A stretch of DNA of 64,000 bases from Zanthoxylum bungeanum (Eukaryota > Streptophyta > Magnoliopsida > Sapindales > Rutaceae). Each line of letters opens with the position of its first letter. Within the stretch, counting starts at the first letter, position 1. Location of the stretch: the NCBI GenBank assembly GCA_019454045.1, contig SKCR01023746.1:1-64000 (forward strand), in the 5' to 3' direction. Made by a program: the position numbers and the translations under genes. The notes under the pieces were generated by a model. That model saw nothing but the letters and a program-made list of their open reading frames with translations. It was not told the origin of the DNA and ran no database searches. This document shows positions 2,094 through 62,094 of the stretch, in pieces.

Positions 2094-2154
2094 ATCTCCT
2101 AAACATAAAATAACAAACAAAAGGCTCAAAAAGAGTAATCTAAAAGATGAAGCT

Positions 2155-3010: not shown

Positions 3011-3013
3011 GCA

Positions 3014-4808: not shown

Positions 4809-4822
4809 GCCAAGTGGGAGAT
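4809..4822 (+). other. Polypurine tract of element A
   Basis: CCAAGTGGGAGAT lies between the RNase H stop codon and the TGTTAGAC start of the LTR. It is the plus-strand primer site for reverse transcription. The core AAGTGGGAGA is shared with elements B and C (CAAGTGGGAGA). Confidence 0.75.
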
Positions 4823-6119
4823 TGTTAGACATTATGACCCATAGCGTCACTGTTTTGTAAATGATATGGTATTATTGTACAAAATTAACTATGTGATAAT
4901 GAAATTGCCCTTTTGCCGTTTTGTAAAATTATTTACTTTAATATATTAATGGCAAAAGTCCATATGATTAGTTCCGTATTGAGATGATATGAGACAGTAT
5001 CAATATAAAAGGTTTAATCATTAAATATCCCTAGTCGAGAGTATTATCGAGATCGGACATCGATAATGCGGAATAGACTAGTATTGCACTTGTGCGAGTT
5101 GTGATGGCACAACGGCATAGTTCTCATATATTTAAGTATTGGATACTTATGCAAGTGCGATAGGAGGTTGTGTTTTACCGATAGTACGGAAAACAGCTTC
5201 GCTCTGGACAGACCCCGCGGAATCCCATTGGTAGTTTAGTTTGTCTGGTGTCTATGGGAGGCCAGCATCAGGGTAGGTGTATATGGTCTTAACCTGAGAC
5301 TTGCATCGCTAGTACTTGCGACAATCGGTAAACTTTGGTTGTGGTGGTTCGGGGCTTTAACCGGTTCTGTGTACGCCTCTTCTGGGTTTATCGAGAATAG
5401 TAGTGTACTGGATGTGATGTCAAGATGGAAGTATCACTTCAGACATATGGAGATGATGATCACGCTGGATACAGAACTAGTACTCTATAAAGGTTGCAAC
5501 CATCGGGACAATATGACCAGGTCAGGATTATCCGATTTAAAAAGAGACTAGTTGTTTGATATCCGATATATGTTTCGTACGGGGCAGACACATTTCCAGC
5601 CCCAGGCCTAACATGTGATCGTCCGATACTGGATCGATATACGCGATACTGCGGTATACTACGCTTGATAAAGATCTAATATTCCAGTAAGAATATTTCT
5701 GGAGAATTGGGTAGGCATGGCGCTTTGCTAGAAGCCAACCTTGTCTTGTAAATCGGTAAAAACGTAGTACGAGGTACATACGTGTTTGGATTATCCAACG
5801 ACCGTATTTACTGCCAACATATCCAAATTAATCTCGATCTCTCTCTCTCTCCTAATAAGGCACTTTATCCAAGATAAAGTTTCTCTCGTAATTAATCCAA
5901 GATTAATAAAGTTCGAATCAAACATCATAGGTGAATCTTCAGGAAGCGACCGGAGATCCTCTTCACCATTTTCGTCACAAAGCTTTGTAAGTATGTTTCC
6001 GCATCCTTCAAGCTTTGCATGTATGTTATTTTATTTCTATGGCTTAATCTTTCTTTGGGACTAATTATAGAAACCACCACTCATCATAGGGACTTATGTG
6101 TAAAAATGCAGTGCCTACA
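4823..6119 (+). repeat. 3' LTR of element A
   Basis: It starts TGTTAGAC right after the polypurine tract. The 3' limit (CCTACA, 6119) is the best TG...CA candidate but cannot be checked against a second copy. The LTR contains short perfect hairpins with a CAA loop, for example 5862-5880 (ACTTTATC/GATAAAGT) and 5891-5907 (ATTAATC/GATTAAT), and a CT repeat at about 5838-5852. GTAAGT at 5986 resembles the splice-donor-like motif late in the other LTRs. The short frames here are not genes. Confidence 0.65.
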
Positions 6120-22786: not shown

Positions 22787-25384
22787 TGTAGGGGTTTTTA
22801 GGGGGAATATCCGGTAACGCAGCGGAAGCGGCGGAAGATCGAATCTTCCGATTTCAAAACTTTTTCTCGGATTCATTAAATAAACATATTTATTTATATC
22901 CAATAATCAAATTATGAAATAAAATTCAAATGAATCATATTTAAGTGAATTTACCGAAATGCCCTTACATTGGTATTTTGTCCATTTTAGTCCGAAATTG
23001 ATCTAATCAATTTTGAATGATTCTAAATCATTTCTAAGATGAACTTAGCATGTTCAAAACATCAAAACACCACAAAAGCAACCAAAATCCCATTTTGACT
23101 CTTAAGGCCGAATGCACCACAAATGTCCCATTTTGTGCACTTTGTCATTTCATGCATCAAAACACATCAAGATGTAATCCAATGGACATGAAACTTTATA
23201 TGCATCATATACACATCCAAATGCACAACATATATGAAAAGCCCCAAATTGGAATTGGTCATGAACCCTAATTTTTCAATTTCATCAAATTGGACAAATT
23301 AGACCAAATTGGTTAAATCTAATACTTCAATCATGTTTCTTCCATCCAAATCAAGTCTCAACACAATGAAACAACTATAGAACAATTCTAGGTCATTTAA
23401 GAGTGGGTCAACAACTCTAGAATGGCAACAAGGTTTCCAAAACCATAAAAAGATACTTATAACTACACTAGTCACAAGCTTTCTCCATTATACATGCTCA
23501 TCACTTTCATCAAAGTTCAAAACCAAATAACACAAAACTATAAAAGAAGAAAAAAGAACATCAAAGCAACACAAAATGATGCCAAGTATGTTAGAAAACA
23601 TTTCCATGTTGAAAGCTTTAAAGAAAGACTTACAAAATCCAAGTTTTCAAGCCTTTTCTCCTTTGGCCTTCAAGCTTTTCTCTCAATTCTTTTATTTTTA
23701 TTTTGTGTATTGAACTTCTTAAACCCTAAAAATGAAAAAACAATATATACCTCCTCCAAATAAGCCTTGGCCGAAATTTGGTGAAGAAATAATATCTAGA
23801 TATATTTTTGTTTCATTAAAGTTACAACTTGTCAACTTGTTCTAAATCATTACACTTTAATGAATTATTCAACTAAGTCAACAATTGCAACTTAAAAATA
23901 TAACACTTATATTTATTTAAGGTCTTGGCCGAAATTTAGCAAAAAATAAAGGAAAAAATATTTTAATTTTAACAATTTAAAAAATATCCAAGGAAGTCAA
24001 ATTCAATTTGACAACCTTTTCCTTTAATGTAAAGTCAAACATTTACACTTATAATCATTTCCTAACTTTATCATTTGGTGAGATATTTATATTTTAATTA
24101 TATTAATCATTTAACAATTAAATAATTAAATAATTAATTAAATACAATATATCAAATATATGTATTATATTTACTTTAAATATCTCAAATACATATATTG
24201 ATGATATGTCAAATACCTTTATTTGACTATTTATTAATGTGTATTTAATAATATCATATATTAAATACAAATACACATTAATTAGGAAATGACGGTTCGG
24301 CCCGTTCGCATGTATTTTTCGTTTAACGTTTAAACGATTTATAAATAATCATCATTATTCATAAAAGTTGCCCTAGTGCTCTACGAGTATGTTTCATTAT
24401 TGAGACTCTCTAGATTCAGGTATATCCGTCACGAAATCCAATTTCGTGTCCATAATCTATCCACCCGTAGATTATGACGATCACGGATAATCTCGCTGAA
24501 TCATACAGGTCGAGGTCATTGCATACGTATAATCCCTCCGTCACAGGTATCCAGATAATCCCAGAGATATAGATGTAAACGTCAAATCTCTATAGGTATT
24601 ATCTCGTCGACGTATCTATTAGCAATCTCTAAATAACACTCGGAACTTACTTCCGATGTATACTGTGGCCACAGATTTAACAGTATATGGACTACCTATG
24701 CTCTGTACACAGAACTGACGGATCCTATCTTGACACACACAGGATATCCTGAGGATCGATCCACACCCAACGAACAGGCGGAGGTCTGATCTAAATAGAT
24801 CGGTGACGTGACTGCCATCTAAGTGTGGAGGATGTCTCATACATCCACAGTGGTGTCTCAAGTCGAAGGACCACTATGCTACTCAACCCGAGAAGATTCT
24901 TATTGACGTTGGCGTACCATCCATTAAGAATCTTCGGTGAGCCGTTCAGTGTTTATCCACTATAAACACCTACACGTCTATACGAGTCCCATAGACTCAT
25001 GGTTCATTGGGATAAACCATCGGACCAAGTCTCGATATACGACATGTACTGGTCTCAACGGATTTGACTAACCGACCCGTGTTAGCAAATCTTGACCAGG
25101 AACTATGTTTGATAATATCATATAGCAGTGACACTTCCCAATGTCAATTACAAACTAACTTTGTAACTGTGTACTGCATTATATATTATCGGGCCTTTGT
25201 CTAATATATACATATCACTAAACCACATTTAGTTTCAATCTAATCAAGTAATCAGATCGAATACGTATATAAGAACAAGAGGTGCAACCATAAATAAGTA
25301 ATATTATGGAATAAGGGGATGTTCGTATTCATGAATCAGACATAAATACGGCCCGGATTGGCGCTCTGAGCACCAACCCCAACA
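22787..25384 (-). repeat. 3' LTR of element B
   Basis: 2598 bp. On the minus strand it starts TGTTGGGGTTGG (ending at 25384), right after the polypurine tract, and ends CCTACA. About 24360-25380 is its hairpin-rich U3 part: for example 24430-24448 (CACGAAAT/ATTTCGTG), 24452-24475 (ATAATCTA/TAGATTAT) and 24893-24934 (AAGATTCTTA/TAAGAATCTT). The AT-rich remainder probably holds the promoter. The short frames in it are not genes. Confidence 0.9.
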
Positions 25385-25429
25385 ATTTCTCCCACTTGCT
25401 CTAGTGCCAATCCACGGTATCATATACAC
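25385..25429 (-). other. Polypurine tract and adjacent 3' end of the element B internal part
   Basis: On the minus strand GAGCAAGTGGGAGAAAT precedes the LTR. The same GAGCAAGTGGGAGA occurs in coding element C at 51162-51175, so B keeps the reverse-transcription signal of its coding relatives. Confidence 0.8.
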
Positions 25430-28400
25430 GTCTCAATGTGCATCGTATGCACATGGTCCTCAAAAGCTCACCCAGTACTTAAGAGGTAGGCAACAAAAAC
25501 AAGTCCGCTATGACATATTGAGTTTGTCAACAAAAACTCTATCGTTTCCCATAGTCAGCATCATTCATATTTTGTAGAATCTAGATTATACATTAATATG
25601 ACTCTGATGCTACATCAGTATTGTGCTACAGCTACTGAGTTGTCCAAGTATTTAAGGATCAAATCCAAAATACTATGAAGACAACCGCAAGCACAACACC
25701 AATTTAAAAACTTCTAATTTAAAAGGTCACTATGCAACTTCATAAGTCAATACTTCAAAAGTTGCATTTGATTCCACTAAATAGTAGAATCCTTCGTGAC
25801 ACTCCCACTGCATCTTTTGTGACTCTTTATGACGTAGACTGTCTAACGTCATAATTAGTCTCAAAACTAATATGACCCTAATGGTTGCAGACTATATTCT
25901 CCATGAATTAGAAACTCGTTCTTAATATCTCAAAGATCACAAAGAACGTGTTTCAAGATCCATCATATGGTCTATAGGATGTCAAAATAACTCGTAACAA
26001 TTACGATTAAATCGACATCGATAATCGCACATAATAAAGTATTCATTATGTCATCATCAAATGATACATAATATTGTTTAGACATTCTAATCAATATCTC
26101 TTTCGAAAAAGGAATCATCCTTTACGAAAGATGAATACTTATGTATAAGACACACAATAACTGTCGAACAGTTATACTAACTGTCATACAGATAGCCTTG
26201 TTATGTCTTTCATTAGATCATATCTAATGTACGACTAATAGGAGTATCTCACAAGTCTCTTGGTTTTATATCTTATATAAAACTTTATATCGTATATAAA
26301 AGAGACTACTCCCACTGCTTTCACGGAGTAAAGAAGACTTAGGTAAATCTTTTACCTCACAAACATCTCATTATTACTATAATAATGACAATGTCGTTAG
26401 ATATATAACACTAGAAAGTAATATGTACGCTCCCACTAACCCTTCTAATCACATATGTATTCTATATACTTTGACAAGATCAGACAATCTGACGATATCA
26501 AAAATAGAGAACACATATTTCTGGAAGACTTATCCGAGTCTACAATAGGCTCTATAAGCTAGCACACTAAACTGCGATCTCAGCAGAACACAAACTCTAG
26601 GGCCATTTCAGAATGAACTCTTCAAATAAGGAAATCACAACTGATCTCTTATCTGAATAAGTCATCCAAAAACGCCACTTTGCATTCTTTAGCTAAAATA
26701 TACAGTTTATTATCAACATTAACCAATATATCTTTAATTGTTCAATTAGTGTGACTAGAGATAAGTTTTCTCAGAATCTACAATAGATTGCTGAGTATAA
26801 CTTTTCTCACTGTCATACTATAAAGGTCAAACCTTTAATAAGCTCACATTGCTTTCGTTGTGCAAACAATTAGCACATATCATGAACTAATTCATAATGA
26901 AAGCGTAATCAAGTTCAAAACTTGATCATAGTAAGCTATGAACAATCTTAGATCTAGGTTCAATGGTGAACTTCCAGAATCGATATCAAATATCGCTTCC
27001 ATTAAAAGTCATAGGATAATTTTTCTTCAATAAGAAAACAACGGAACCATTAAGTATCAAATACTCGTGAATGATTCTGTTATCCTATTGGACTTGTACG
27101 GAAGATGTATAAGGGTTGTTCATCTTATTAATTACATAGTTCCATTTATAATTTATCATTCTCACATTTGACTTCAATAAGTCAAGTCTTTTCTACAATA
27201 GTTAACATCTGATGTTACACACCAAGTAATAAAACGATTTTATTACTTAGAATCGTAGGAAAGATATTCTATTAAATAGAATACAATATTCTATTAAACA
27301 GAATAAACGATAAACTTTTACTTATACCTCCGAGGTGTAAGTAATTTCCATTATATAACTATTATATAAAAGAAAGATTGAAATCTCAAACTTTTCAAGA
27401 TTCAAATTTTCTACCTATACATATCATATATGCAACTGTAGAAAATAATGGAACATTAATTAAAGAGATGAATTAGTGTTACTGGAGTATAACCCCAAGA
27501 GTATTGAAACTAATTCGGTAACTTCAATATCAGACGAATCAAATCATATAAGATTCGATTGCTCCCACTACTCAATTCCATCAAGATGGAATCGTGGAAG
27601 AACAATATTGAATATGAATCATATTCACTAAATAACCTTAGAACTAATTGCTTTAAATTCATACGTTTGATCGTATCAAAGATCTTTGAACAGTTCAAAG
27701 ACATGTTATGAATTTTGAGGATAGAATTCTCTAAAACCTTTAGATTGAATATATTTGAACAAGTCAAAAATGTTCAATCTACGTTTCATCAGAACGGATT
27801 GAAAGTACTTGATACTTTCAAGACTTTCAATATGTGTTCCTTCAGAAACACGTAACTAAGTTATGACAATTCATCAACTAAGTTACGAAATAAAGAAAAC
27901 TACCTTAAGCAATTATTATTTATAAAACTACATACATCCAATGTATCAGTTAAATAAATTTGGTGGTCCAATGACAATCATTGGTTAAACGAGATCTTAA
28001 TCACTTTCCTGAATACAATATTCATTAAATGGATAAGGATGTGTGGTGTGATCTAGTATCAAACCATCCTTACCATACGGAATAGCAGCATCCAATGCTT
28101 AAGTGATTAAATTCATAAAGCACCGTTCTAAATTATTTACTTTACCGAATAATTTTTCTTAATGTTTATCTCTACGTCAATGACACTACTAGTTATTATA
28201 AAATATGTAACAATTGTTTATAAAGAACAAGTGACTATCCAATAGTCGCAAGTTCCGATATCAAATATCAAAACAATCGTTAACCAATATTTCAAATAAC
28301 TAGACGGGAGATCTGGTATCCAATACCTATAGTTGTTGTAGTATTGTGAAAATCGATATTTTCTATACACAAATATACGCATCTCCTTTCTTTAGCTTTA

Positions 28401-28950
28401 CTATTTGCATTCAACTATTCACAACAATTGTAAATAACTGATTAGCAAATTGTGTCAGACACATTACCTCTAAAGGTAATTAAAGCTTAGAAACGTCATT
28501 ACTAGATAAACAAATACCTAATAGGGCTTTCTAAATGCCAGTCAAGAATCTCGAGACATGAACTAATTCAAGACAATTCTTACTGCATAAGAAACTATTG
28601 TCTCTAAAGTATTATATCCTAAAGGGGATATCTATCTAGATTATCTATCATGACTTAGAAACTAAGTCATTAACCATCTTTATTTTTGAAGAAAATCGAA
28701 ACAACAGTTCCCGATGGTTTAGACCAATCTAATAATATCCTAGTCTAGTAGTATCTAGAACCTATTCTAGAATAACTGCAACCAAGAGTCTAGTCAGATA
28801 ACATATCAAAATATGTGTGCAGTAAATAAAAGTTTAATTCTATATACAATAGAATAAGGAAACAAACAAGCGGCAATTTCCATAATAACATACACTGCCT
28901 AAGTTATGGAATATTTTAAACTTAGCAGTGCCTCCCACTATTTTTACGTA
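25430..28950 (-). other. Hyper-hairpin non-coding core of element B (copy 1)
   Basis: By eye I count roughly 60 or more short perfect inverted repeats, nearly end to end and often nested. Examples: 25436-25454 (ATGTGCAT/ATGCACAT), 25732-25767 (ATGCAACTT/AAGTTGCAT with AAGT/ACTT inside), 26100-26130, 26211-26229 (CATTAGAT/ATCTAATG), 26263-26283, 27224-27248 (11-base arms AAGTAATAAAA/TTTTATTACTT), 27968-27984 and 28651-28669. Long-range arms enclose smaller hairpins, for example 27997-28006 with 28101-28110. The loop is most often three bases, CAA on the plus strand (UUG in the transcript). No frame is long or conserved enough to be a gene. The RNA is the likely product; its role is unknown. 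Confidence 0.85.
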
Positions 28951-29569
28951 ATGCCGTAATCCCCAACGGAAAGACGAGAATTCAATAATTAAATCGAATT
29001 CCATAATGGGAAGAGGACCCCATGAATATATTTCGACTCACAGCAGAGGCACGGTCTCGCCTACGTATATTCACAGGTAGACAACTAATTGTCAATCACT
29101 CACTAGTGACTCCAGGTTCCGGTCCTGGCCGTTTCTCGTTGTCGCTGCGAAGGCAGGCCCACAAGGAGACGTACCAAGGTTAAACTTGTCAATGATAAAC
29201 TCAAGTTACTTGCGTAACCCTGACAGCTAGGGCACGTTCAGGATTCCGCTTTCGCTTGAATTTATCTAGTATCTAATATACATTCGGCATAAATAAATTT
29301 CTATCAGCTACATCCTCACAGCAGAGGCACGGTCTCGGATGTAGTCAACGAAAAGATATTTATAAACCGTATTGACAAGACGGACCAAGAAACAAGTATT
29401 CCAAATACTAGTTACTTTAAACCTTATTAAGCGGGGATATTCCATTAAGTGTCATACACCCTAAATCTAATCAAATTAGATTATAACATGCATGTATAAA
29501 GTCAAGAAAACATGATTAAACATTGAATAAAACAAGCTAATCATTTTATGGAGGCCTAGAATCAGACTC
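28951..29569 (-). other. Leader of element B with structured repeats
   Basis: This lies between the PBS and the hairpin core. 29024-29072 is a hairpin with GAATATA/TATATTC arms and the apical element GTGCCTCTGCTGTGAG (minus strand), identical to that in the leader of D (43946-43993). A second copy of the apical element is at about 29316-29337. This identity ties B to the D subfamily rather than C, whose loops read GTGCCAAAGCTG. Confidence 0.75.
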
Positions 29570-29581
29570 GCTCTGATACCA
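29570..29581 (-). other. Primer-binding site of element B
   Basis: The minus strand reads TGGTATCAGAGC, complementary to the 3' end of initiator tRNA-Met, three bases inside the LTR. Confidence 0.9.
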
Positions 29582-29584
29582 TTT

Positions 29585-32186
29585 TGTAGGGGTTTTTAGG
29601 GGGAATATCCGGTAACGCAGCGGAAGCGGCGGAAGATCGAATCTTCCGATTTCAAAACTTTTTCTCGGATTAATTAAATAAACATATTTATTTAATTATC
29701 CAATAATCAAATTATGAAATAAAATTCAAATGAATCATATTTAGTGAATTTACCGAAATGCCCTTACATTGGTATTTTGTCCATTTTAGTCCGAAATTGA
29801 TCTAATCAATTTTGAATGATTCTAAATCATTTCTAAGATGAACTTAGCATGTTCAAAACATCAAAACACCAAAAGCAACCAAAAATCCCATTTTGACTCA
29901 TTGGCCGAATGCACCACAAATGTGCCATTTTGTGCACTTTGTCATTTCATGCATCAAAACACATCAAGATGTAATCCAATGAACATGAAACTTTATATGC
30001 ATCATATACACATCCAAATGCACAACATATATGAAAAGCCCCAAATTTGGAATTGGTCATGAACCCTAATTTTTCAATTTCATCAAATTGGACAAATTAG
30101 ACCAAATTGGTTAAATCTAATACTTCAATCATGTTTCTTCCATCCAATCAAGTCTCAACACAATGAAACAACTATAGAACAATTCTAGGTCATTTAAGAG
30201 TGGGTCAACAACTCTAGAATGGCAACAAGGTTTCCAAAACCATAAAAGAATACTTATAACTACACTAGTCACAAGCTTTCCATTATACATGCTCATACAC
30301 TTTCATCAAAGTTCAAAACCAAATCAACATAAACATAAACTATAAAAGAAGAAAGACATCAAAGCAACACAAAATGATGCCAAGTATGTTAGAACAATTT
30401 CCATGTTGAAAGTTAAAGAACTTACTAAAATCCAAGTTTTCAAGCCTTTTCTTTTGGCCTTCAAGCTTTCTCTTCAACTTTCTTTATGTTTATTTTTTGT
30501 ATATGAACTTCTTAAACCCTAAAAATGAAACAAAACAATATATACCTCCTCCAAATAAGCCTTGGCCGAAATTTGGTGAAGAAATAAATCTAGTTATTTA
30601 TTTTTTCATTAAAGTTACAACTTGTCAACTTGTTTTCTAAATCATTCACTTTAATGAATTATTCAACTAAGTCAACAATTGCAACCTTAAAAATATAACA
30701 CTTATATTTATTTAAGGTCTTGGCCGAAATTTAGCAAAAAATAAAGGAAAAAATATTTTAATTTTAAACAATTTAAAATAAATATCCAAGAAGTCAAATT
30801 CAATTTGACAACCTTTTCCTTTAATGTAAAGTCAAACATTTACACTTATAATCATTTCCTAACTTTATCATTTGGTGAGATATTTATATTTTAATTATTA
30901 ATCATTTAACAATTAAATAATTAAATAATTAATTAAATACAAATATATCAAATATATGTATTATATTTACTTTAAATATCTCAAATACATATATTGATGA
31001 TATATGTCAAATACCTTTATTTGACTATTTATTAATGTGTATTTAATAATATCATATATTAAATACAAATACACATTAATTAGGAAATGACGGTTCGGCC
31101 CGTTCGCATGTATTTTTCGTTTAACGTTTAAACGATTTATAAATAATCATCATTATTCATAAAAGTTGCCCTAGTGCTCTACGAGTATGTTTCATTATTG
31201 AGACTCTCTAGATTCAGGTATATCCGTCACGAAATCCAATTTCGTGTCCATAATCTATCCACCCGTAGATTATGACGATCACGGATAATCTCGCTGAATC
31301 ATACAGGTCGAGGTCATTGCATACGTATAATCCCTCCGTCACAGGTATCCAGATAATCCCAGAGATATAGATGTAAACGTCAAATCTCTATAGGTATTAT
31401 CTCGTCGACGTATCTATTAGCAATCTCTAAATAACACTCGGAACTTACTTCCGATGTATACTGTGGCCACAGATTTAAACTGACATATATGGACTACCTA
31501 TGCTCTGTACACAGAACTGACGGATCCTATCTTGACACACACAGGATATCCTGAGGATCGATCCACACCCAACGAACAGGCGGAGGTCTGATCTAAATAG
31601 ATCGGTGACGTGACTGCCATCTAAGTGTGGAGGATGTCTCATACATCCACAGTGGTGTCTCAAGTCGAAGGACCACTATGCTACTCAACCCGAGAAGATT
31701 CTTATTGACGTTGGCGTACCATCCATTAAGAATCTTCGGTGAGCCGTTCAGTGTTTATCCACTATAAACACCTACACGTCTATACGAGTCTCCATAGACT
31801 CATGGTTCATTGGGATAAACCATCGGACCAAGTCTCGATATACGACATGTACTGGTCTCAACGGATTTGACTAACCGACCCGTGTTAGCAAATCTTGACC
31901 AGGAACTATGTTTGATAATATACATATAGCAGTGACACTTCCCAATGTCAATTACAAACTAACTTTGTAACTGTGTACTGCATTATATATTATCGGGCCT
32001 TTGTCTAATATATACATATCACTAAACCACATTTAGTTTCAATCTAATCGTAATCAGATCGAATACGTATATAAGAACAAGAGGTGCAACCATAAATAAG
32101 TAATATTATGGAATAAGGGGATGTTCGTATTCATGAATCAGACATAAATACGGTCCGGATTGGCGCTCTGAGCACCAACCCCAACA
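29585..32186 (-). repeat. 5' LTR of element B
   Basis: 2602 bp, nearly identical to 22787-25384 with scattered single-base indels. It should be followed on the right by the C LTR and a 5-bp duplication. Instead it is followed by a second, truncated internal domain. Confidence 0.88.
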
Positions 32187-35100
32187 ATTTCTCCCACTTG
32201 CTCTAGTGCCAATCCACGGATCATATACTCGTCTCAATGTGCATCGTATGCACATGGTCCTCAAAAGCTCACCCAGTACTTAAGAGGTAGGCAACAAAAA
32301 CAAGTCCGCTATGAAATATTGAGTTTGTCAAAAACAAACTCTATCGTTTCCCTTAGTCAACATCATTCCATTTTGTAGAATCTAGATTATACATTAATAT
32401 GACTCTGATGCTACATCAGTATTGTGCTATAGCTACTGAGTTGTCCAAGTATTTAAGGATCAAATCCAAAATACTATGAAGACAACCGCAAGCACAACAC
32501 CAATTAAAAACTTCTAATTTAAAAGGTCACTATGCAACTTCATAAGTCAATACTTCAAAAGTTGCATTGATTCCACTAAATAGTAGAATCCTTCGTGACA
32601 CTCCCACTGCATCTTTTGTGACTCTTTATGACGTAGACTGTCTAACGTCATAATTAGTCTCAAAACTAATATGACCCTAATGGTTGCAGACTATATTCTC
32701 CATGAATTAGAAACTCGTTCTTAATATCTCAAAGATCACAAAGAACGTGTTTCAAGATCCATCATATGGTCTATAAGATGTCAAAATAACTCGTAACAAT
32801 TACGATTAAATCGACATCGATAATCGCATGTAATAAAGTATTCATTATGTCATCATCAAATGATACATAATATTGTTTAGACATTCTAATCAATTCTCTT
32901 TCGAAAAAGGAATCATCCTTTACGAAAGATGAATACTATGTATAAGACACACAATAACTGTCGAACAGTTATACTAACTGTCATACAGATAGCCTTGTTA
33001 TGTCTTTCATTAGATCATATCTAATGTACGACTAATAGGAGTATCTCACAAGTCTCTTGGTTTTATATCTTATATAAAACTTTATATCGTATATAACAGA
33101 GACTACTCCCACTGCTTTCACGGAGAGTAAAGAAGACTTAGGTAAATCTTTTACCTCATAAACATCTCATTATTACTATAATAATGACAATGTCGTTAAG
33201 ATATATAACACTAGAAAGTAATATGTACGCTCCCACTAACCCTTCTAATCACATATGTATTCTATATACTTTGACAAGATCAGACAATCTGACGATATCA
33301 AAAATAGAGAACACATTTCTGGAAGACTTATCCGAGTCTACAATAGGCTCTATAAGCTAGCACACTAAACTGCGATCTCAGCAGAACACAAACTCTAGGG
33401 CCATTTCAGAATGAACTCTTCAAATAAGGAAATCACAACTGATCTCTTATCTGAATAAGTCATCCAAAAACGCCACTTTGCATTCTTTAGCTAAAATATA
33501 CAGTTTATTATCAACATTAACCAATATATCTTTAATTGTTCAATTAGTGTGACTAGAGATAAGTTTTCTCAGAATCTACAATAGATTGCTGAGTATAACT
33601 TTTCTCACTGTCATACTATAAAGGTCAAACCTTAAATAAGCTCACAATGCTTTCGTTGTGCAAACAATTAGCACATATCATGAACTAATTCATAATGAAA
33701 GCGTAATCAAGTTCAAAACTTGATCATAGTAAGCTATGAACAATCTTAGATCTAAGGTTCAATGGTGAACTTCCAGAATCGATATCAAATATCGCTTCCA
33801 TTAAAAGTATAGGATAATTTTTTTTCTCAATAAGAAAACAACGGAACCATTAAGTATCAAATACTCGTGAATGATTCTGTTATCCTATTGGACTTGCACG
33901 GAAGATGTATAAGGGTTGTTTCATCTTATTAATTACATAGTTCCATTTATAATTATCATTCTCACATTTGACTTCAATAAGTCAAGTCTTTTCTACAATA
34001 GTTAACATCTGATGTTACACACCAAGTAATAAAACGATTTTATTACTTAGAATCGTAGGAAAGATATTCTATTAAATAGAATACAATATTCTATTAAACA
34101 GAATAAACGATAAACTTTTACTTATACCTCCGAGGTGTAGGTAATTTCCATTATATAACTATCATATAAAAGAAAGATTGAAATCTCAAACTTTTCAAGA
34201 TTCAAATTTTCTGCCTATACATATCATATATGCAACTGTAGAAAATAATGGAACATTAATTAAAGAGATGAATTAGTGTTACTGGAGTATAACCCCAAGA
34301 GTATTGAAACTAATTCGGTAACTTTCAATATCAGACGAATCAAATCATATAAGATTCGATTGCTCCCACTACTCAATTCCATCAAGATGGAATCGTGGAA
34401 GAACAATATTGAATATGAATCATATTCACTAAATAACCTTAGAACTAATTGCTTTAAATTCATACGTTTGATCGTATCAAAGATCTTTGAACAGTTCAAA
34501 GACATGTTATGAATTTTGAGGATAGAATTCTCTAAAACCTTTAGATTGAATATATTTGAACAAGTCAAAAATGTTCAATCTACGTTTCATCAGAACGGAT
34601 TGAAAGTACTTGATACTTTCAAGACTTTCAATATGTGTTCCTTCAGAAACACGTAACTAAGTTATGACAATTCATCAACTAAGTTACGAAATAAAGAAAA
34701 CTACCTTAAGCAATTATTATTTATAAAACTACATACATCCAATGTATCAGTTAAATAAATTTGGTGGTCCAATGACAATCATTGGTTAAACGAGATCTTA
34801 ATCACTTCCTGAATACAATATTCATTAAATGGATAAGGATGTGTGGTGTGATCTAGTATCAAACCATCCTTTACCATATGGATTGAGCATCCAATACTTA
34901 AGTGATTAAATTCATAAAGCACCGTTCTAAATTATTTACTTTACCAAATAATTTTTCTTAATGTTTATCTCTACGTCAATGACACTACTAGTTATTATAA
35001 AATACGTAACAATTGTTTATAAAGAACAAGTGACTATCCAATAGTCGCAAGTTCCGATATTAAATATCAAAACAATCGTTAACCAATATTTCAAATAACT

Positions 35101-35736
35101 AGACGGGAGATCTGGTATCCAATACCTATAGTTGTAGTATTGTGAAAATCAATATTTTCTATACACAAATATACGTATCTCCTTTCTTTAGCTTTACTAT
35201 TTGCATTCAACTATTCACAACAATTGTAAATAACTGATTAGCAAATTGTGTCAGACACATTACCTCTAAAGGTAATTAAAGCTTAGAAACGTCATTACTA
35301 GATAAACAAATACCTAATAGGGCTTTCTAAATGCCAGTCAAGAATCTCGAGACATGAACTAATTCAAGTCAATTCTTACTGCATAAGAAACTATTGTCTC
35401 TAAAGTATTATATCCTAAAGGGGATATCTATCTAGATTATCCATCATGACTTAGAAACTAAGTCACTAACCATCTTTTATTTTTGAAGAAAATCGGAACA
35501 ATATTCCCGATGGTTTAGACCATCTAATAATATCCTAGTCTAGTAGTATCTAGAATCTATTCTAGAATAACTGCAACCAAGAGTCAAGTCAGATAACATA
35601 TCAAATATATGTGTGCAATAAATAAATGTTTAATTCTATCTACTATAGAATAAGGAAACAAACAAGCGGCAATTTCCATAATAACATACACTGCCTAAGT
35701 TATGGAATATTTTAAACTTAGCAGTGCCTCCCACTA
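32187..35736 (-). mobile_element. Truncated second copy of the B hairpin core
   Basis: It repeats 25385 to about 28944 with few differences and the same hairpins. It ends in the middle of CCTCCCACTAT, before the leader, and there joins ATAACATC of the C LTR. It has no PBS, leader or 5' LTR. Either a three-LTR array lost its right end, or the assembly joined two haplotypes here. The frames in it are not supported genes. Confidence 0.8.
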
Positions 35737-38034: not shown

Positions 38035-38037
38035 AAA

Positions 38038-38049
38038 TGGTATCAGAGC
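38038..38049 (+). other. Primer-binding site of element C
   Basis: TGGTATCAGAGC, the initiator tRNA-Met complement, three bases after the LTR end. Confidence 0.9.
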
Positions 38050-38811
38050 AAGTCTGATTCTGGACAACCGATATATTATTATGCCTTTCAAATTCAATGT
38101 TTACTTTAATCTTGACTTTATGCATGCATGTATTTATTTAATTTGATTAAATAAAGTAAAAACATCTTTTGCGGAAAAATCCTTATTTAAAATAAGGTTT
38201 TTAATTAAATGTGTATTTGATACATATTGATTGGTCCGTCTTATCAATACCGCTTATCGATAAATTTTCTGCCACTATATCTGAGAATGTGCCAAAGCTG
38301 TGAGGATATGGCCGGTAGAAATTTATCTGTACCAGATATATTTGATATTAGGTGAATTCAAACGAAAGCAGAATCCTGAACGTGCCAAAGCTGTCAGGGT
38401 TTCGCAAGTATCTTGAATTCAACATTGACAAGTTTAACCTTGCTACGCCTCCTTGTGAATGTGTCAAAGCTGTCACAACAAGAAACGACCAAGACCAAAA
38501 ACCCGGGAGTCACTATTGAGTGATTGACAATGAGTTATCTACCTAATGAATATACGTAGGCGAGAACGTGCCAAAGTTGTGAGCTGAAATATATTCATGG
38601 GGTCCACCTTTCACTATTATGTTATGATTTGATTACCGCATGTTTTGTATTCTGTTTGGGGATTACAGTTTTGCATGAAATAGTGGGAGATACATTTTTA
38701 GATTAAAAATCCATGATCTAGTTAATGCTTTATGATATAATATGAAATTGTTTAATCTTTTATCTGCTTATCTGCTTACCGTTGAATCACTATCTATTTG
38801 ATAGATTTACG
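38050..38811 (+). other. Leader of element C with four structured repeats
   Basis: GTGCCAAAGCTGT or a close variant occurs near 38289, 38382, 38460 and 38568. Around them are inverted repeats: about 38259-38326 (GATAAATTT.../...AAATTTATC), 38354-38420 (GAATTCAA/TTGAATTC outside, CTGA/TCAG inside), about 38451-38482, and 38548-38596 (GAATATA/TATATTC). No coding frame is present. Confidence 0.75.
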
Positions 38812-39640
38812 ATGGCGGCACCTCCAACCAATCCTTTTGCTCGTATGTTTGATACGAATAAGCTAAAAGGCGCTGAGAAATTTGCGGATTGAGATATGGA
38901 TTTGAGGATTGTCCTCAATTTCGAGAAGTTGGGATACATTTTGGAAGGTCCATTACCGCTTGGTATATCTCTAGATGCATCTCCTGAAGAACATGAGACT
39001 TTCCAGAGATGGAAATATGATGATTTAAGGGTTAAATCATTCATTCTGAGTTCTCTTTCTTCAGAGCGTAAGAAGACTTACTTTGAGATGCACAATGCGT
39101 ATAGCATGATGACATAACTTCGTGAATCTTTCATGAACAATGAACATGCCGTGGTTCATAGAGTTTCAATGGAATTGTTTCATTCTAAACTTGATGAGGG
39201 GTAGGTTGTGAGCCCGCATGTGCTTCACTTGATCAATTTGATTGAGCAGTTGAGGCACCAGGATTTCCCTCTCAATGAAACTCTGGGCGTAGTGTCATTC
39301 TCGGTTCACTCCCGATGTCGTATCGCCAGTTCATTATGTACTTCAACATGAATGAGATTCACTACTCTTACCGTGAGTTCCATAAGATGCTTCTCACAAC
39401 AAAGGAAGACTTGAGGAATGGAGTTCCTACTCGCCTTCCGAAACCCACTTCACTTTCCGCTTCTTCCCAATCCAAGTCGAAGGGGAAGAAGACAAAAGGA
39501 AAGAAGAAGAAGGGTTTCAATGTTCATCCGCAAGCTAAGGTAGCGAAGCCCAAGAGAGCTTCTGAAGACAAGTGCCACCACTGCCAGAAATTCGGCACTG
39601 GAAAAGAAACTACATGGACTATCTTGCATAGATAAGGAAG
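38812..39640 (+). pseudogene. gag of element C (broken)
   Basis: It starts with ATGGCGGCACCT, like D. It reads through NKLKGAEKFAD and then a TGA where D has Trp. Further stops are at about 39116 (TAA after SMMT) and 39203 (TAG). The remains of the zinc knuckle are near 39575-39610: KCHHCQKF, then frame loss before the last Cys. Gag would form the particle; here it cannot. The pattern of stops suggests C-to-T decay. Confidence 0.85.
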
Positions 39641-39689
39641 GAAAGGGCATCTACATCAGGTACTTTTATTTTTCCTATTATTGATATCT

Positions 39690-41034
39690 CATTGGCTTGT
39701 GAAGCTATGACATCTAATTGGATTTTAGATTCTGCTTGTCCTATTCACATTTGCAATACGTTGCAGGTGTTGACGGGAAGTAGACGACTGAAATTTGGGG
39801 AGATACAATTGCAATTCGAGAGTGGTGACTCTCTGGATGCAGTTGCAGTGGGCATATGCGAGATTCCTTTACCTAGTGGGAGACTTTTGTTAAATGACTG
39901 CTATTTTTTTGCCAGAGTGTGTGGCGAATATTATGTCTCTTTTTGTATTAGATACTGAAGGATATAATGTAAATATTAAGAATCGTTCTTTATATTTATA
40001 TGATAGTAATAATATTCAGATCCTTTGTTGTCCAAACGAGCATGGTCATTACATATTGCGTACCTCACTAGATATCTGTAATACTTGAATTAATAAACGT
40101 AAACAATCTGTTATAAATAATACTGAACTCTGGCATATGTGGTTAGGTCATATAGGCGTGAAATGCCTAACCCAATTTGTTAAGAATGGTTTGATACATG
40201 ATCTCACCATTGAATCTTATCCAACTTGCGAATCTTGTATTTGAGGTAAAATGCCCAAAGACAATTTTCGGGTGTTGGACACTGAGCCACTGACTTATTG
40301 GAACTTATACATTATGATGTATGTGGTCCAATGAGTCAAATTACTCACAATGGTTTTTCTTACTTAGTTACCTTTACTGACGATCTGTCATGGTACAGTT
40401 ATGTTTATTTGATAAAACATAAATAGGAAACCTTTGAAAAGTTCAAAGAATTCCGAAATGAAGTTGAAAAACAGACTGGACAATATTAAATGCCTTTGAT
40501 CTGATCGAGACGGTGAATATATGAGTGGAGAGTTCACTGATTATTTAAAAGAGAATGAGATTCTCGCTCAATATACTCCTCCAAGAACTCCGCAACATAA
40601 TGAAGTGTCAGAAATGAGAAATCGGACTTTATTGGATATGGTACGATCGATGTTGAGTTATACAAATTTACCATATTACTTATGAGATTATGCTCTTTTA
40701 ATTACAGCTCATCTCCTGAATACGATTTTTTCTAAAGTTGTTCCTATAACTCCGTATTAGATATAGACCGGTAGGAAATCAAATCTTAGTTAAATTAAGA
40801 TTTAAGGGTGTCCTGCATACGTCAAGATGGCTCATCAAAATAAGCTTTTGCCTTGAGAGCATAAGTTTAGGTTTATTGGATATCCTTCAAATACGAAATG
40901 ATATTTGTTTTATGATACCGAGCATCGAAATATGTTCGTAGCTCGCTTCGTAAAATTTCTAGAAATAGAATTTTTGTCTGAAGGTGGTGATCATAGACAA
41001 GTTGAAATTGATGAAGTAAAACCTGGTACCAAAG
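39690..41034 (+). pseudogene. pol of element C, first part: protease and integrase (broken)
   Basis: The protease active site is WILDSACPIHIC near 39718-39755 (Ala in the third place, as in D). The integrase zinc part and core can be followed by comparison with D from about 40130 to 40900, but with stops at 40086, 40243, 40425, 40683, 40757, 40855 and 40897. The piece 40905-41034 (DTEHRNMFVARFVKFLEIEF) runs straight into the D LTR and continues in frame at 49447 beyond D. Confidence 0.88.
41030..41034 (+). repeat. Target duplication of element D (left)
   Basis: CAAAG, identical to 49447-49451 on the other side of D. Confidence 0.9.
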
Positions 41035-43433: not shown

Positions 43434-43436
43434 AAT

Positions 43437-43448
43437 GGTATCAGAGCG
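43437..43448 (+). other. Primer-binding site of element D
   Basis: TGGTATCAGAGC, the initiator tRNA-Met complement. Confidence 0.9.
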
Positions 43449-44193
43449 AGTCTGATTCTAGGCCCCCTAAAATGATTAGCTTTAATTAAATCAATGTTTA
43501 ATCATGTTTTCTTGACTTTATACATGCTTATTATAATCTAATTTGGTTAGATTTAGGGTGTATGACACTTAGCGGAAAATCCATAATAATAAGGTTTTAA
43601 TGTAATTATGTATTTGATGCATGTTATGTGGTCCGTCTTGTCAATACGGTTTATGAATACTTCTCTGTGACTACATCCGAGACCGTGCCTCTGCTGTGAG
43701 GGTGTAGCCGATAGAGATTTATTTATACCGGATGTATATCAGATACTAGGTAAATTCAAGTAAAAGCGGAATTCTGAACGTGCCCTAGCTGTCAGGATTA
43801 CGTAAGTAACTTGAGTTTATCATTGACGAGTTTAACCTTGGTACGTCTCCTTGTGGGCCTGCCTTCGCAGCGACAACGAGAAACGACCAGGACGGAAACC
43901 CAGGAGTCATTAGAGAATGATTGACAAATGAGTTGTCTACCTGATGAATATACGTAGGCGAGACCGTGCCTCTGCTGTGAGCCGAAATATATTCACGGGA
44001 TCCACCTTTCACTATTAGTATTTAATTTAATTATTAAATCTTTGTATTCTGTTTGGGGATTACAGTATTGCATGATTTAGTGGGAGGGGCATTTTTAGAT
44101 TAAAAATCCATGATCTAGTTTATGCTTTTGATATTATATGAAACTGCTTAATTTCTGCTAACCGTTTTTCGTGATCTATATGATAGATTGGCG
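43449..44193 (+). other. Leader of element D with structured repeats
   Basis: Inverted repeats at about 43661-43715 (TCTCTGT/ATAGAGA and CTACATC/GGTGTAG), 43751-43820 (TAAATTCAAG/CTTGAGTTTA) and 43946-43993 (GAATATA/TATATTC). The tips read GTGCCTCTGCTGT, GTGCCCTAGCTGT and GTGCCTCTGCTGT. A fourth candidate is near 43846-43880. These sit exactly where C has its GTGCCAAAGCTGT loops, so loop sequence and arms have changed while the layout stayed. Confidence 0.75.
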
Positions 44194-45060
44194 ATGGCGG
44201 CACAATCCACAAATCAGTTTGCGCGTATGCTTGATGCGAACAAACTGAAAGGCGCTGAGAACTTCGCTGACTGGGAATTGGATTTGAGGATTGTCCTCGA
44301 TTCCGAAAAGCTGGGATATGTTCTTGAGGGTCCGTTGCCCCTTGCTGTGGGTACGGATGCTTCGGAGGAGGAACGCCAAGTTTTTGAAACTTGGAAGGAT
44401 GATGATTTAAGGGTTAAATCATACATCCTTAGTTCACTGTCTCCGAAACTCAAGCAACAGTACTATGGTATGCTAGATTCTATAGTATGATGACGTGATT
44501 GAGACAATCGTTTGAGAACCAAGAACAAGTGATTGTTCACAAAGTCGCCATGGAACTGTTCCATGTGCGTCTGGATGAGGGGCAAAATGTTAGCCCACAT
44601 GTTCTTCAGATGATCGATTTGATCGATCAATTGAGGCAACATAATCTCATTTTGAATGACGCTCTCGGTATGAGTGTCATTCTTGGTTCACTTCCAGCTT
44701 CATTTCTCCAGTTCGTGATGTACTTCAACATGAACGGGACTTTCTGTACCTACCAGGAGCTACATAGGATGTTGCTCACGGCAGAAGAGGATCTTAAGAA
44801 GGGAGTACCGACTCGCCCACCTAGATCTACTTCTCTCTCTGCTTCTTCCCAAGGATGGTCTAAGGGAAAGAAGAAGAAAGGGAAGAAGAAGAAGGCTTTC
44901 GGTCCTCAACAGCAGGCAAAGATTGCTAAGCCCAAGAGGGTTTCTGAAGACAAATGCCACCACTGCGGCAAAGTCGGGCATTGGAAAAGGAACTGTCCTG
45001 ATTACATCGCCCAGCTGAGGAGAGAGAGAGCATCTACATCAGATACTTTTATTTTTCCAG
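44194..45060 (+). pseudogene. gag of element D (nearly intact, one break)
   Basis: The ATG at 44194 follows the leader. The first part reads ANKLKGAENFADWELDLRIV to about 44475, then a frame change near 44470-44485 and a TGA at 44496-44498. From 44499 the frame is open: Gag helices, a Lys-rich linker (GKKKKGKKKK) and the zinc knuckle CHHCGKVGHWKRNC at about 44957-44998. Gag forms the cytoplasmic particle. The break lies at the same place as a stop in C. Confidence 0.88.
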
Positions 45061-46611
45061 TTATTGATTTATCTTGGCTTGTGAAGCCGTTACATCCAAC
45101 TGAATTTTAGATTCTGCTTGTCCCATTCACATTTGCAATTCGTTGCAGGTGCTGAAGGAAAGTAGGAGGCTGAAGCCCGGGGAGATGCAGTTGCGGTTCG
45201 GGAGTGGAGACTCTTTGGATGCAGTTGCAGTGAGAGTATGCGAGATCTCATTGCCGAATGAGACACTTTTGTTAAATGAATGTCATTTTGTACCTGGATG
45301 TGTAGCTAATATTATATCACTTTTTGTATTGGATACAGAAGGCTTTTGTATTAATATTAAGAACAGTTCTTTATATTTAAATGATAGTAATAATATTCAG
45401 ATCCTTTGTTGTCCAAACCAGCATGGTCATTATACATTGCAACTTCAAAAGATATATTAAATACTGGAGTTAATAAACGTAGTTTACCTGTAATTAATAA
45501 TACTGAACTTTGGCATATGAGACTTGGTCACATTGGCGTTAAACGCCTTACCCAATTGGTTAGGAATGGTTTGATACCAGATCTTACCATTGAATCCTAT
45601 CCAACTTGTGAATCCTGTATTCAGGGTAAAATGACCAAAGCCCAATTTTCTGGTGTTGGACACCGTGCCATTAACTTACTGGAACTCGTACATTCTGATG
45701 TATATGGTCCACTAAGTCAAACTGCTCACAGTGGTTATTCGTACTTCGTTACCTTTACCGATGATCTGTCACGGTACGGTTATGTCTATTTGATGAGACA
45801 TAAATCGGAAACCTTTGAAAAGTTCAAAGAGTTCCGAAATGAAGTAGAAAAACAAACTGGTAAATATATTAAATGCCTTCGATCAGATCGAGGCGGCGAA
45901 TATATGAGTGGTGAGTTCATGGATTATATGAAGGAGAATGGGATTCTCGCTCAATATACTCCTCCAGGTACTCCACAGCACAATGGAGTGTCTGAGAGGA
46001 GAAATCAGACTTTATTGGATATGGTCCGATCAATGTTGAGTTTCACAGATTTGCCCTATTACTTATGGGGCTACTCTCTCTTGACAGCCGCACATCTTTT
46101 GAACAAGATTCCTTCAAAAGTTGTTCCTACGACTCCGTATCAGATATGGTTCGGTAGGAGACCAAATCTTAATTATATTAAGGTTTGGGGTTGTCCTGCC
46201 TATGTCAGGGTGACTCAGCAAGATAAGCTTTCGCCTCGAGGGCAAAAGTTTAGGTTTGTCGGATATCCTTCGAATACGAGGGGATATCTGTTCTATGATA
46301 CCGAGCATCGAAATGTGTTCGTAGCTCGCTTTACAAAATTTCTAGAAGTAGAATTTTTGTCAGAAGGTGGTAATCATAGACATGTTGAGCTTGATGAAGT
46401 CCAACCTGAAAACAACGAACCAACGGAGGAACCTGAAGTTCAAGTAGATGAAGGACCTTCAACACACACACTCCGTAGGTCGGAAAGGGTATCTAGACCT
46501 CCTGAACGCTTGTATTTGATACAAGAAAAGAGTCTGGATGTTCTCTTAGTTGAAGAGACAGATCCTTTCACCTATAGAGAATCGATATTGGACATCGACT
46601 CCGTGAAATAG
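45061..46611 (+). pseudogene. Protease and integrase of element D
   Basis: The protease site (ILDSACPIHICNSLQ) follows a frame change and a TGA at 45098-45100 where C has Trp. After another shift near 45440-45480 the integrase is open from about 45487: ELWHMRLGHIGVKRL and CESCIQGK (zinc part), HSDVYGPLSQ, RSDRGGEYMSG and GVSERRNQTL (D,D,E), then the C-terminal NVFVARFTKFLEVEF and the RRSERVSRPPERL linker. A TAG at 46609-46611 replaces the Trp codon before RT. Integrase residues are all present. Confidence 0.9.
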
Positions 46612-47229
46612 CAAAGTGCCATGAAATCCGAGATAGATTCAATGCATGAAAATCAAGTTTGGGACTTGATTCCGCTTCCCGAAGGAATTGTTCCTATCGG
46701 TTGTAAATGGGTTTACAAGAGGATGCGCGGGCCTGACGGTAAGGTTGAAACTTACAAGGCCCGACTGGTAGCAAAAGGTTACACGCAGCGACCTGGCGTC
46801 GACTACGATGAAACTTTTTCGCCGGTGGCAATGCTTAAGTCTATCCGGATTTTGCTTTCTATAGCTGCGTATCATGACTACGAGATTTGGAAAATAGATG
46901 TCAAAACGGCTTTTCTAAATGGATTTCTTGATGAAGAAATCTATATGGAACAGCCTGAAGGTTTCGCGTCCAGCGAAACCTCGGGTATGGTATGTAAGCT
47001 TAAGAAGTCCATTTATGGACTTAAACAAGCTTCACGAAGTTGGAATCTTCGATTCGACGAGATTATTAGATCGTCTGGTTTTCTCAAGAATTCGGAAGAA
47101 TCCTGTGTGTATCAGAAGGCCAGTGGGAGCATGGTCGTATTTTTAGTCCTATATGTTGATGACATCCTAATCATTGGGAATGATTTAGGTATGTTACAAA
47201 GCGTCAAAGCGTACCTCTGTAAGAAGTAG
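46612..47229 (+). pseudogene. Reverse transcriptase of element D (C-terminally deleted)
   Basis: Conserved blocks are intact: GCKWVYKRMRGPDGK, YKARLVAKGYTQ, DETFSPVA, IDVKTAFLNGFLDEEIYMEQ, SIYGLKQASRSWN and the active site LYVDDILIIGND. After AYLCKK the sequence jumps into the 3' LTR, so the thumb, connection and RNase H are absent. Element C keeps the next residues (NFSMKDLGETSY) at 50248, which shows where the deletion starts. Confidence 0.9.
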
Positions 47230-51165: not shown

Positions 51166-51178
51166 AAGTGGGAGATTT
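51166..51178 (+). other. Polypurine tract of element C
   Basis: CAAGTGGGAGATT, directly before the 3' LTR. Confidence 0.8.
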
Positions 51179-53563: not shown

Positions 53564-53568
53564 TAAAC
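53564..53568 (+). repeat. Target duplication of element C (right)
   Basis: TAAAC, identical to 21924-21928. Confidence 0.9.
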
Positions 53569-62072: not shown

Positions 62073-62094
62073 AAATCTCTCACTTGCTCTAGTG

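Follow-up and report, generated by a model that had tools for sequence, protein, structure and literature searches.

Element B and its coding relatives

The window, a 64,000-nucleotide stretch of a Zanthoxylum bungeanum contig, harbors an LTR element on the minus strand (B) that is followed by a tandem unit, as well as Copia relatives, among them X and the coding relative Y, and a more distant one, A (Table 1). B shows several traits of a LARD. Its LTR is 97.8% identical to the repeat at 29585-32186, a primer binding site and a polypurine tract are present, and the internal region is long and non-coding, the longest transcript-sense open stretch of the core being 87 codons and those of the cores (some partial) of 29 other copies 63-131 codons. 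LTR sequence was found on both sides of 22 of 29 genomic copies within the flank length taken. The primer site TGGTATCAGAGC is presumably of the initiator tRNA-Met type, and AGTGGGAG at 25389..25396 is assumed from its position to act as polypurine tract. The RT-gene copies of this motif are located at 47122 in Y, 63097 in W and 3794 in A, while the one inside the core is retained in 31 of 31 core copies. A search of Rfam at the gathering score gave no match within the window.

Concerning the relatives, Pfam searches of the Y ORFs detected the gag-IN-RT order and the RVT_2 reverse transcriptase of the Copia lineage, to which the B core itself is tied by nucleotide homology only. The Gag of Y and the Gag of A carry a CCHC knuckle each. 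No relative was found among viral contigs searched with the Y RT protein. We infer that an autonomous partner moves B in trans, since 40 scored places are 94-100% identical and its LTR and leader are shared with Y and X.

Table 1. Features of element B and of its relatives within the window.
Feature	Position	Strand	Remarks
Copia element A	1..6000	+	Less closely related; shares the hairpin and loop signature
LTR of B	22787..25384	-	2.6 kb; TGTTGGGG...CCCCTACA in transcript sense, direct reading
Conserved, structured 1-kb LTR part	24081..25106	-	U3 side; common to the LTRs of X, Y and Z
Hairpin-rich non-coding core of B	25386..28930	-	
Putative polypurine tract core AGTGGGAG	25389..25396	-	Adjoins the 3' LTR
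Core part homologous to pol	25830..28163	-	Collinear with pol of X, Y, Z and W from the integrase to the RNase H region
AGTCTC/GAGACT	26232..26320	-	Around two neighboring perfect inverted repeats (26263-26283, 26284-26300)
AGTGGGAG inside the core	26430..26437	-	Same place as the RT-gene copy of the motif
Longest perfect core hairpin	27224..27248	-	11 bp; transcript loop TCG
10-bp closing stem	27997..28110	-	One long irregular arm; predicted fold
Leader of B	28931..29585	-	87% identity to Y, 75% to X
AGTGGGAG at the leader/core border	28932..28939	-	High identity with X and Y ends there
Primer binding site TGGTATCAGAGC	29570..29581	-	
Second LTR, tandem B unit	29585..32186	-	
Second core	32187..35735	-	Ends at its leader-border AGTGGGAG
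X internal region	38038..41030	+	With hairpins
Y internal region	43436..47224	+	Hairpins within coding sequence
Y gag	44499-45110	+	One CCHC knuckle; Pfam
Y integrase	45406-46611	+	Pfam
Y RT	46621-47229	+	Pfam

A foreign core in the place of gag-pol is not supported: about two thirds of the core is decayed pol. BlastN (word size 5) matched core positions 1799-3112 with W (58.7% identity, E-value = 6e-39) and 805-2561 with Y (56.8% identity, E-value = 1e-25), and the Smith-Waterman score against Y was 751, compared with 264 ± 18 for shuffled sequence. The gag part (core positions 9-790) matched Y marginally (120 vs. 87 ± 10, the highest of 100 shuffles reaching 121.5). Core-Y differences in the integrase are even over the codon positions (46/39/43%); the respective values for Y-X are 13/11/25%. 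Judged by this homology, most of the core represents a pol gene that has decayed in collinear order; no coding remains.

Hairpins and their loops

The hairpins of the core are real. Stem count and folding energy, whose agreement with shuffled sequence had been named as grounds for dismissing them, both lie far beyond the shuffles. Perfect stems of at least 6 bp with 3-5-base loops number 41 in the core, against 4.5 ± 2.4 (maximum 12) in 100 dinucleotide shuffles, and those of at least 8 bp number 14 against 0.4 ± 0.7. The second core also has 41 hairpins (5.0 ± 2.3 by chance). Minus-strand RNA of the core in 200-nt windows has a mean z of -4.33, with 94% of 17 windows below -2, and the whole-core fold of the transcript strand, with base pairs limited to a 400 nt span, gave -1030.9 kcal/mol vs. 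-753.8 ± 15.5 in 40 shuffles. In this fold hairpins follow one another at intervals of about 50 bases and those with a short G-ending loop at intervals of about 80, and 38 loops are triloops (6.8 ± 2.5 in shuffles). The perfect stems are 6-11 bp long, few stems (two) have one mismatch, and the longest uninterrupted predicted helix has 15 pairs (13.5 ± 1.8 in shuffles). What the earlier note overstated is the extent: in the core said to be made "almost entirely" of hairpins, the 1298 predicted pairs involve 73% of the bases, compared with 1137 pairs and 64% in shuffles. The feature is also not confined to the core, as the LTR (27 hairpins vs. 3.4 by chance) and Y at 44090-47224 (20 vs. 2.4 in shuffles) carry it too. 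Control stretches have a mean fold z of -0.73 to 0.03, compared with -4.3 in the core; a milder hairpin excess occurs in those at 14.3-21.9 kb (38 vs. 12.7) and 53.6-64 kb (27 vs. 11.1).

The inverted repeats named individually are all present in the sequence. Those at 25732-25767, 26100-26130, 27224-27248 and 28651-28669 form as described in the predicted minus-strand fold, the third being perfect in 24 of 28 scored copies, and 27997-28006 pairs with 28101-28110. The AGTCTC/GAGACT repeat does form a closing stem in that fold, but the two local hairpins it was said to enclose do not appear there: the two neighboring repeats are predicted to pair with each other, so that the perfect 9-bp repeat at 26263-26283 is not the local hairpin at this place.

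The loops had been described as mostly CAA on the plus strand (UUG in the RNA). This is indeed the commonest perfect triloop, yet with 8 of 28 it is no fixed rule, and the regularity lies in the last position of the transcript loop, which is G in 31 of 41 core hairpins (C first on the plus strand), 23 of 27 in the LTR, 17 of 23 in the Y internal region and 20 of 30 in the Copia element A. Chance hairpins have G there in 19-24%, and in the predicted core fold 69% of loops end in G vs. 12% in folded shuffles, although A and U are far commoner bases. The bias is absent from the control stretch at 14.3-21.9 kb, outside these elements (6/34). Change at the final G is not clearly slower than at the other loop bases (3.8 vs. 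4.1% in the core, 8/27 vs. 25/85 in the LTR); a final G changed in 12 of 140 cases vs. 8 of 37 for other last bases.

The coding relatives X, Y and Z and the Copia element A share the hairpins, and a restriction of the feature to the LARD core is not supported. Across eight ORFs, 25 coding hairpins of at least 6 bp were counted vs. 6.1 ± 2.4 in codon-preserving shuffles, and 15 of at least 7 bp vs. 1.65 ± 1.3, with none of 300 shuffles reaching either count. In 16 of these 25 the first loop base is also the first of a codon, a phase that places a free third position in many of the pairs. Among other retroelements of the same genome, namely six RVT_1 and four other Copia elements (the latter over 1.8-2.5 kb around the RT), the signature is absent or weak.

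Conservation of hairpin places and pairing

Hairpin places are conserved with compensated pairs, clearly in the integrase and more weakly in the RT. Matching places between the core and coding pol amount to 7 in the Y integrase (0.84 by chance), 6 in the Y RT (0.57), 7 in W (1.08), 5 in Z (0.98) and 4 in X (0.65), and A shares 5 places with the Y integrase (0.53). From core to Y, pairing was kept in 18 of 22 double changes in the integrase (P = 7.5e-5, assuming a 0.40 chance of pairing and independent pairs). In the RT-to-PPT part, doubly changed pairs still pairing were 7/13, 8/17, 7/10, 6/14, 5/10 and 3/3, which is not significant. For the structured LTR part, RNAalifold predicted 338 pairs on six sequences, 18 of them with a compensated double change, and the alignment-energy z was -8.4 (four sequences).

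Sense-strand G-U changes outnumber A-C changes 43:13 over seven comparisons, against a neutral expectation of 67:59 (P = 2.4e-4). The Int A-Y counts (25 G-U, 13 A-C) were left out of this pool on account of an unreliable alignment at 59% identity, and the second LTR comparison, X-Y1 (8:1), as not independent. A function at the DNA level is disfavored by this excess. In the alignments, the antisense strand is about equally stable when compared with its shuffles, and the evidence for the strand therefore rests on the G-U excess and the loop G. Selection on RNA shape in the transcript strand, as the earlier note proposed, is thus well supported by the compensated pairs and the G-U excess.

Among copies, the arms are perfect in 1073 of 1223 hairpin-by-copy cells; complementarity is largely retained, but copies 96-99% alike are a poor test of covariation. 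In 31 recent core copies the G-U:A-C ratio is 64:51, about the hand-made expectation from counts outside hairpins, and in a propagated-versus-singleton test P was 0.10 for stems against the rest and 0.15 for stems against loops. The 39 differences between the two cores of the window look random relative to the fold, these cores being too alike for a pairing test. Low stem divergence in pairwise comparisons was set aside, as stems perfect in one copy are biased toward about half the divergence under neutrality. When stems were defined in one copy and scored between two others, divergence was 1.6% in stems, 4.1% in loops and 2.8% elsewhere for the core, and 9, 29 and 16%, respectively, for the LTR. 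Leader and RT loops are not faster (3/26 vs. 378/1756; 4/53 vs. 283/2063). Conserved RNA structure, a further LARD trait, is present in B, although the signal is weak for the RT part and for recent copies.

Core hairpins are denser than those of Y at 44090-47224 (11.6 vs. 6.4 per kb) after loss of coding and at 43-48% divergence, so hairpins have been kept and gained without a protein. The coding relatives and the non-coding derivative, which lie within one window and have hairpins at the same places of the gene, allow selection on RNA to be told apart from selection on protein. These data suggest that RNA shape is being kept, perhaps as a docking site for a particle protein.

Possible role of the hairpins

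The reading we favor, tentatively and at a little less than even confidence, is that B is a non-autonomous Copia derivative whose G-ending-loop hairpins serve as dispersed sites for the Gag zinc knuckle. The RNA genome of this lineage carries short perfect hairpins throughout its coding and non-coding parts, with 3-5-base loops mostly ending in G; B has lost pol coding function while keeping many pol hairpins and gaining more. Each hairpin could offer an unpaired G to the single CCHC knuckle of Gag, the whole RNA may then act as a long series of Gag-binding sites, i.e., dispersed packaging signals, and the protein-less B might thereby enter particles made by its relatives. Retroviral CCHC knuckles are reported to bind to guanosines exposed in loops, among them the final loop G in two hairpins of HIV-1 (PMC7599994). 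The same source counts against Gag binding here in describing MoMuLV NC without binding to isolated hairpins and replacement of the HIV-1 GGAG loop without significant effect on packaging (PMC7599994), as does an account of yeast Ty1 in which internal deletions of as much as 5 kb had no significant effect on trans transposition (PMC4974528). The weak signal in recent copies, the RT part, the rate of change of the loop G and the hairpin excess at 14.3-21.9 kb were also weighed on that side. A broader version, held slightly more loosely still, is that the lineage possibly writes a Gag hairpin code genome-wide, via synonymous sites where coding, that survives pol loss and spreads; the LARD would then be a former pol gene serving purely as RNA scaffold, and a parasite that retains only the parts read by the particle.

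Genome-wide folding selected for compactness or for protection from nucleases and silencing, comparable to genome-scale ordered RNA structure (GORS) in certain RNA viruses and with no particular loop reader, is unlikely but the strongest competitor. Low fold energy over whole elements rather than single sites would agree with it, and so would short stems, which give a compact RNA without long perfect duplex; the G-ending loops (69 vs. 12%, with A and U much commoner) and the preference for triloops (38 vs. 6.8) are left unexplained. Dicer-type enzymes act on duplexes of about 20 bp or more, for which perfect stems of 6-11 bp and a longest uninterrupted predicted helix of 15 pairs are short, and a decoy for them is so far not supported, although longer imperfect arms such as 27997-28110 exist. 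Rather improbable is a mutational process in which the reverse transcriptase switches template at fold-backs and copies an arm as its complement, with no selection. In its favor, the arms are perfect and one-mismatch stems few, and among recent copies 7 of 16 double-change events within stems left the pairing intact, 6 of these 7 in single copies (one change being counted in both directions). On the other hand, the G-U excess needs selection on RNA, the places of the hairpins within the gene persist over 40-55% divergence, the other Copia and RVT_1 elements of this genome have weak hairpins or none, and no one-strand G at the loop end is predicted by template switching.

We consider very doubtful a role of the hairpins in translation, in avoiding splicing or in RNA localisation of the coding relatives, with the core as decaying pol in which they are still visible: the coding hairpins and the decayed pol fit, but the core has more hairpins than Y at 44090-47224, not fewer. 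Chance or base composition is scarcely credible and already contradicted, since no shuffle comes near the core count, core energy or coding count, the controls do not share the fold energy and the stretch at 14.5-21.9 kb has no loop-G bias, even if AT-rich DNA yields some hairpins and control stretches are mildly enriched.

The Gag-binding reading bears on two questions about LARDs, which make no protein: what selects them for packaging, and why the core persists. It also outlines a simple route from gene to structural RNA. The loop-end G is a one-base prediction suited to a binding assay. Concerning known systems, GORS denotes ordered structure throughout an RNA genome including its coding parts; B is likewise structured throughout, but is not an RNA virus, and its short, perfect hairpins are regular and follow a loop rule. 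LARDs such as Sukkula of Triticeae resemble B in having many copies and LTRs, a primer site and a polypurine tract around a long non-coding core, and conserved RNA folding has been reported for the group (PMC7215508). Unlike the LARDs described there, B has a core of mostly recognisable decayed pol and G-ending short-loop hairpins, a signature common to its coding relatives. Packaging signals of enteroviruses, STNV and HBV are reported as many dispersed short stem-loops with a minimal shared loop motif, also in coding sequence (PMC7793301, PMC3593212, PMC7612645). B shares the genome-wide stem-loops with a common loop motif, but it is a retrotransposon, its presumed reader is a Gag zinc knuckle and its motif is a single loop-end G. 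The genomic RNAs of Ty1, Ty3 and HIV-1 are, like those of this lineage, LTR-element RNAs with structure in coding sequence, and stable regions are described as a mosaic making up to 30% (Ty1, Ty3) and about 40% (HIV-1) of the RNA (PMC11381356), whereas the excess of predicted folding here spans LTR, leader, coding sequence and core. Finally, Cassandra, a TRIM, is described as a non-coding LTR element with a conserved fold and tandem arrays (PMC7215508); its fold pairs its LTRs and it carries 5S sequence, while B has local hairpins and 2.6-kb LTRs.

Hairpins across the Copia cluster

Copia LTR retrotransposons form a nested cluster in the window (genome size 3.96 Gb). They comprise element B, a non-coding derivative, its relatives X, Y, Z and W, and the more distant element A, which is 58-66% identical to Y at the protein level over three best matches. 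The genome appears to be that of a plant: among the best 120 of 3327 protein matches to the Y integrase, those carrying an organism name were plants.

Features of the Copia cluster and occurrences of AGTGGGAG (window coordinates)
Feature	Position	Strand	Remarks
Element B LTR	22787-25384	minus	
Element B core	25386-28930	minus	
Element B leader	28931-29585	minus	carries tRNA-Met-type primer site
Element B second LTR	29585-32186	minus	followed by second, truncated B unit
Relative X	35735-41030	plus	
Relative Y	41031-49449	plus	gag, integrase and RT ORFs
Relative Z	49450-53566	plus	
Relative W	near 61929-63812	minus	
Element A	1-6000	plus	more distant Copia
AGTGGGAG starts	656, 3020, 3794, 4813, 38682, 39875, 44079, 47122, 51167	plus	
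AGTGGGAG starts	25389, 25802, 26309, 26430, 27562, 28932, 32191, 32601, 33106, 33230, 34363, 35728, 63097	minus	

We show that the hairpins are an RNA-level feature of this Copia lineage, partly kept without protein. The excess described in an earlier note for the B core is real, as 41 perfect stems of at least 6 bp with loops of 3-5 bases were counted against 4.5±2.4 in 100 dinucleotide shuffles. Predicted fold energy was also below that of 40 shuffles (-1030.9 vs -753.8±15.5 kcal/mol), and the modelled fold contained 38 triloops (6.8±2.5 in shuffles), with G as the last base in 69% of short loops vs 12%. The CAA loop (UUG in the transcript) emphasized by that note is indeed the commonest, but accounts for just 8 of the 28 perfect triloops.

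The signature is strand-specific and wider than the B core. Read on the plus strand, B loops mostly have C first, while loops of the plus-strand relatives mostly have G last. In transcript sense, G closes the loop in 31/41 hairpins of the B core, 23/27 of its LTR and 3/3 of its leader, as well as in Y (LTR 15/24, internal 17/23), X (LTR 12/23, internal 11/15), Z (internal, 8/12) and A (20/30), compared to 17-24% in chance hairpins. In A, Y and Z, eight coding ORFs (seven matched by Pfam; the one at 50437-50979 not) harbor 25 hairpins vs 6.1±2.4 after synonymous-codon shuffling, and 15 vs 1.65 for stems of at least 7 bp. The loop starts at a codon boundary in 16 of the 25 hairpins, a phase with a free third base in many pairs.

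Origin of the B core

Judged by its sequence, the B core is mostly decayed pol. It is collinear with the integrase-RT-RNase H region of Y, Z and W over about 25830-28163, with 57-59% nucleotide identity in local matches (best E-value = 6e-39), 51-57% in forced global alignments, and a Smith-Waterman score against Y of 751 (264±18 in 30 shuffles). No clear gag match was found for its first 780 bases. Each transcript-sense frame contains 87-119 stops, and none of 29 other copies has an open stretch longer than 131 codons. Differences between core and Y are even over codon positions (46/39/43%, integrase), unlike those between Y and X (13/11/25%). The 8-base RT-gene motif AGTGGGAG is retained at the corresponding site.

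The core is far less similar to Y than are the LTR and leader; identity falls at 28931, exactly at AGTGGGAG, from ~87% in the leader to no clear match, reflecting either a template switch or uneven constraint.

Distribution and conservation of the signature

The signature is not a general retroelement feature. Elsewhere in this genome, six RVT_1 loci (L051-L056) have 12, 1, 5, 1, 2 and 0 hairpins (2.1-4.2 expected) and fold z of -0.65 to +0.48; the moderate excess in L051 (12 vs 4.2) lacks G bias (loop-end G in 2/12). Four other Copia loci (L057-L060) have 7, 3, 3 and 5 hairpins vs 2.7, 2.4, 1.6 and 1.9, fold z of -1.0, 0.05, -0.25 and -1.5, and loop-end G in 8/18. The Y-type RT loci (n = 20, the window's own included) carry 23-29 hairpins each, two of them 26 vs 2.4 and 3.0 expected, and some have open frames reaching 700-1005 aa. 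Within the window, milder excesses occur at 14.3-21.9 kb (38 vs 12.7) and 53.6-64 kb, W included (27 vs 11.1); energy excess in its other parts is small (mean z -0.73 to 0.03). The region of a 592-aa ORF on the minus strand (9421-11199), which encodes MULE transposase and FAR1 domains, is hairpin-poor and was used as a control. A tandem array (12679-14283, period ~171 bases, shifted copies ~90-93% alike) contains two open frames on the minus strand, of 267 and 272 aa, neither of which matches Pfam.

Single stem changes in seven comparisons of relatives (window core pair included, 3:1) gave 43 G-U and 13 A-C outcomes (neutral 67:59, P = 2.4e-4). In 31 recent cores (two in the window and 29 fetched; 40 places were scored out of 8526 first-look candidates) the ratio was 64:51, close to background, which is what changes arising mostly after insertion would give. 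Alignment energies did not separate the strands. Across the copies, 1073 of 1223 hairpin-by-copy combinations show the window-core hairpin as a perfect one. Comparing two copies at stems taken from a third gave differences of 1.6% in stems, 4.1% in loops, 3.8% at the loop end and 2.8% elsewhere. Variants in at least three copies affect 16/573 stem, 154/2841 other and 11/136 loop sites; singletons contrast less (55, 318 and 19, respectively), and the combined shared-versus-singleton test of stems against the rest reached only P = 0.10.

Putative Gag recognition and AGTGGGAG repeats

The G-ending loops would be read by the Gag CCHC knuckle, which is present in Y and A. Retroviral knuckles are described as binding exposed guanosines, for example, in MoMuLV, the G of UCUG and, in HIV-1, the final loop G of two hairpins (PMC7599994), and a packaging-signal model for small RNA viruses involves multiple genome-wide stem-loops with a minimal loop motif (PMC7793301). 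However, Ty1 is reported to tolerate large internal deletions (PMC4974528), MoMuLV hairpins in isolation to be unbound, and replacement of the HIV-1 GGAG loop not to affect packaging significantly (PMC7599994). LARDs with conserved folds are already known (PMC7215508); among papers listed from an open-access library and judged by title or beginning of abstract (weak evidence of absence, subscription papers being mostly outside it), we recognised neither G-ending hairpins in plant Copia nor a LARD core preserved as folded former pol.

AGTGGGAG, also the polypurine-tract (PPT) core, has 22 copies in the window where 0.8 would be expected; each B unit carries six, and all 22 lie on the sense strand of a Copia element, at leader ends, within RT and at PPTs. 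On average, 0.93 of the core copies retain these six sites, compared with 0.85 for all 8-mers. The second B unit ends exactly at the leader-border AGTGGGAG, fused to a 5'-truncated X LTR (35728-35740), as if copying began from an internal polypurine tract; the repeats are perhaps internal plus-strand start sites.
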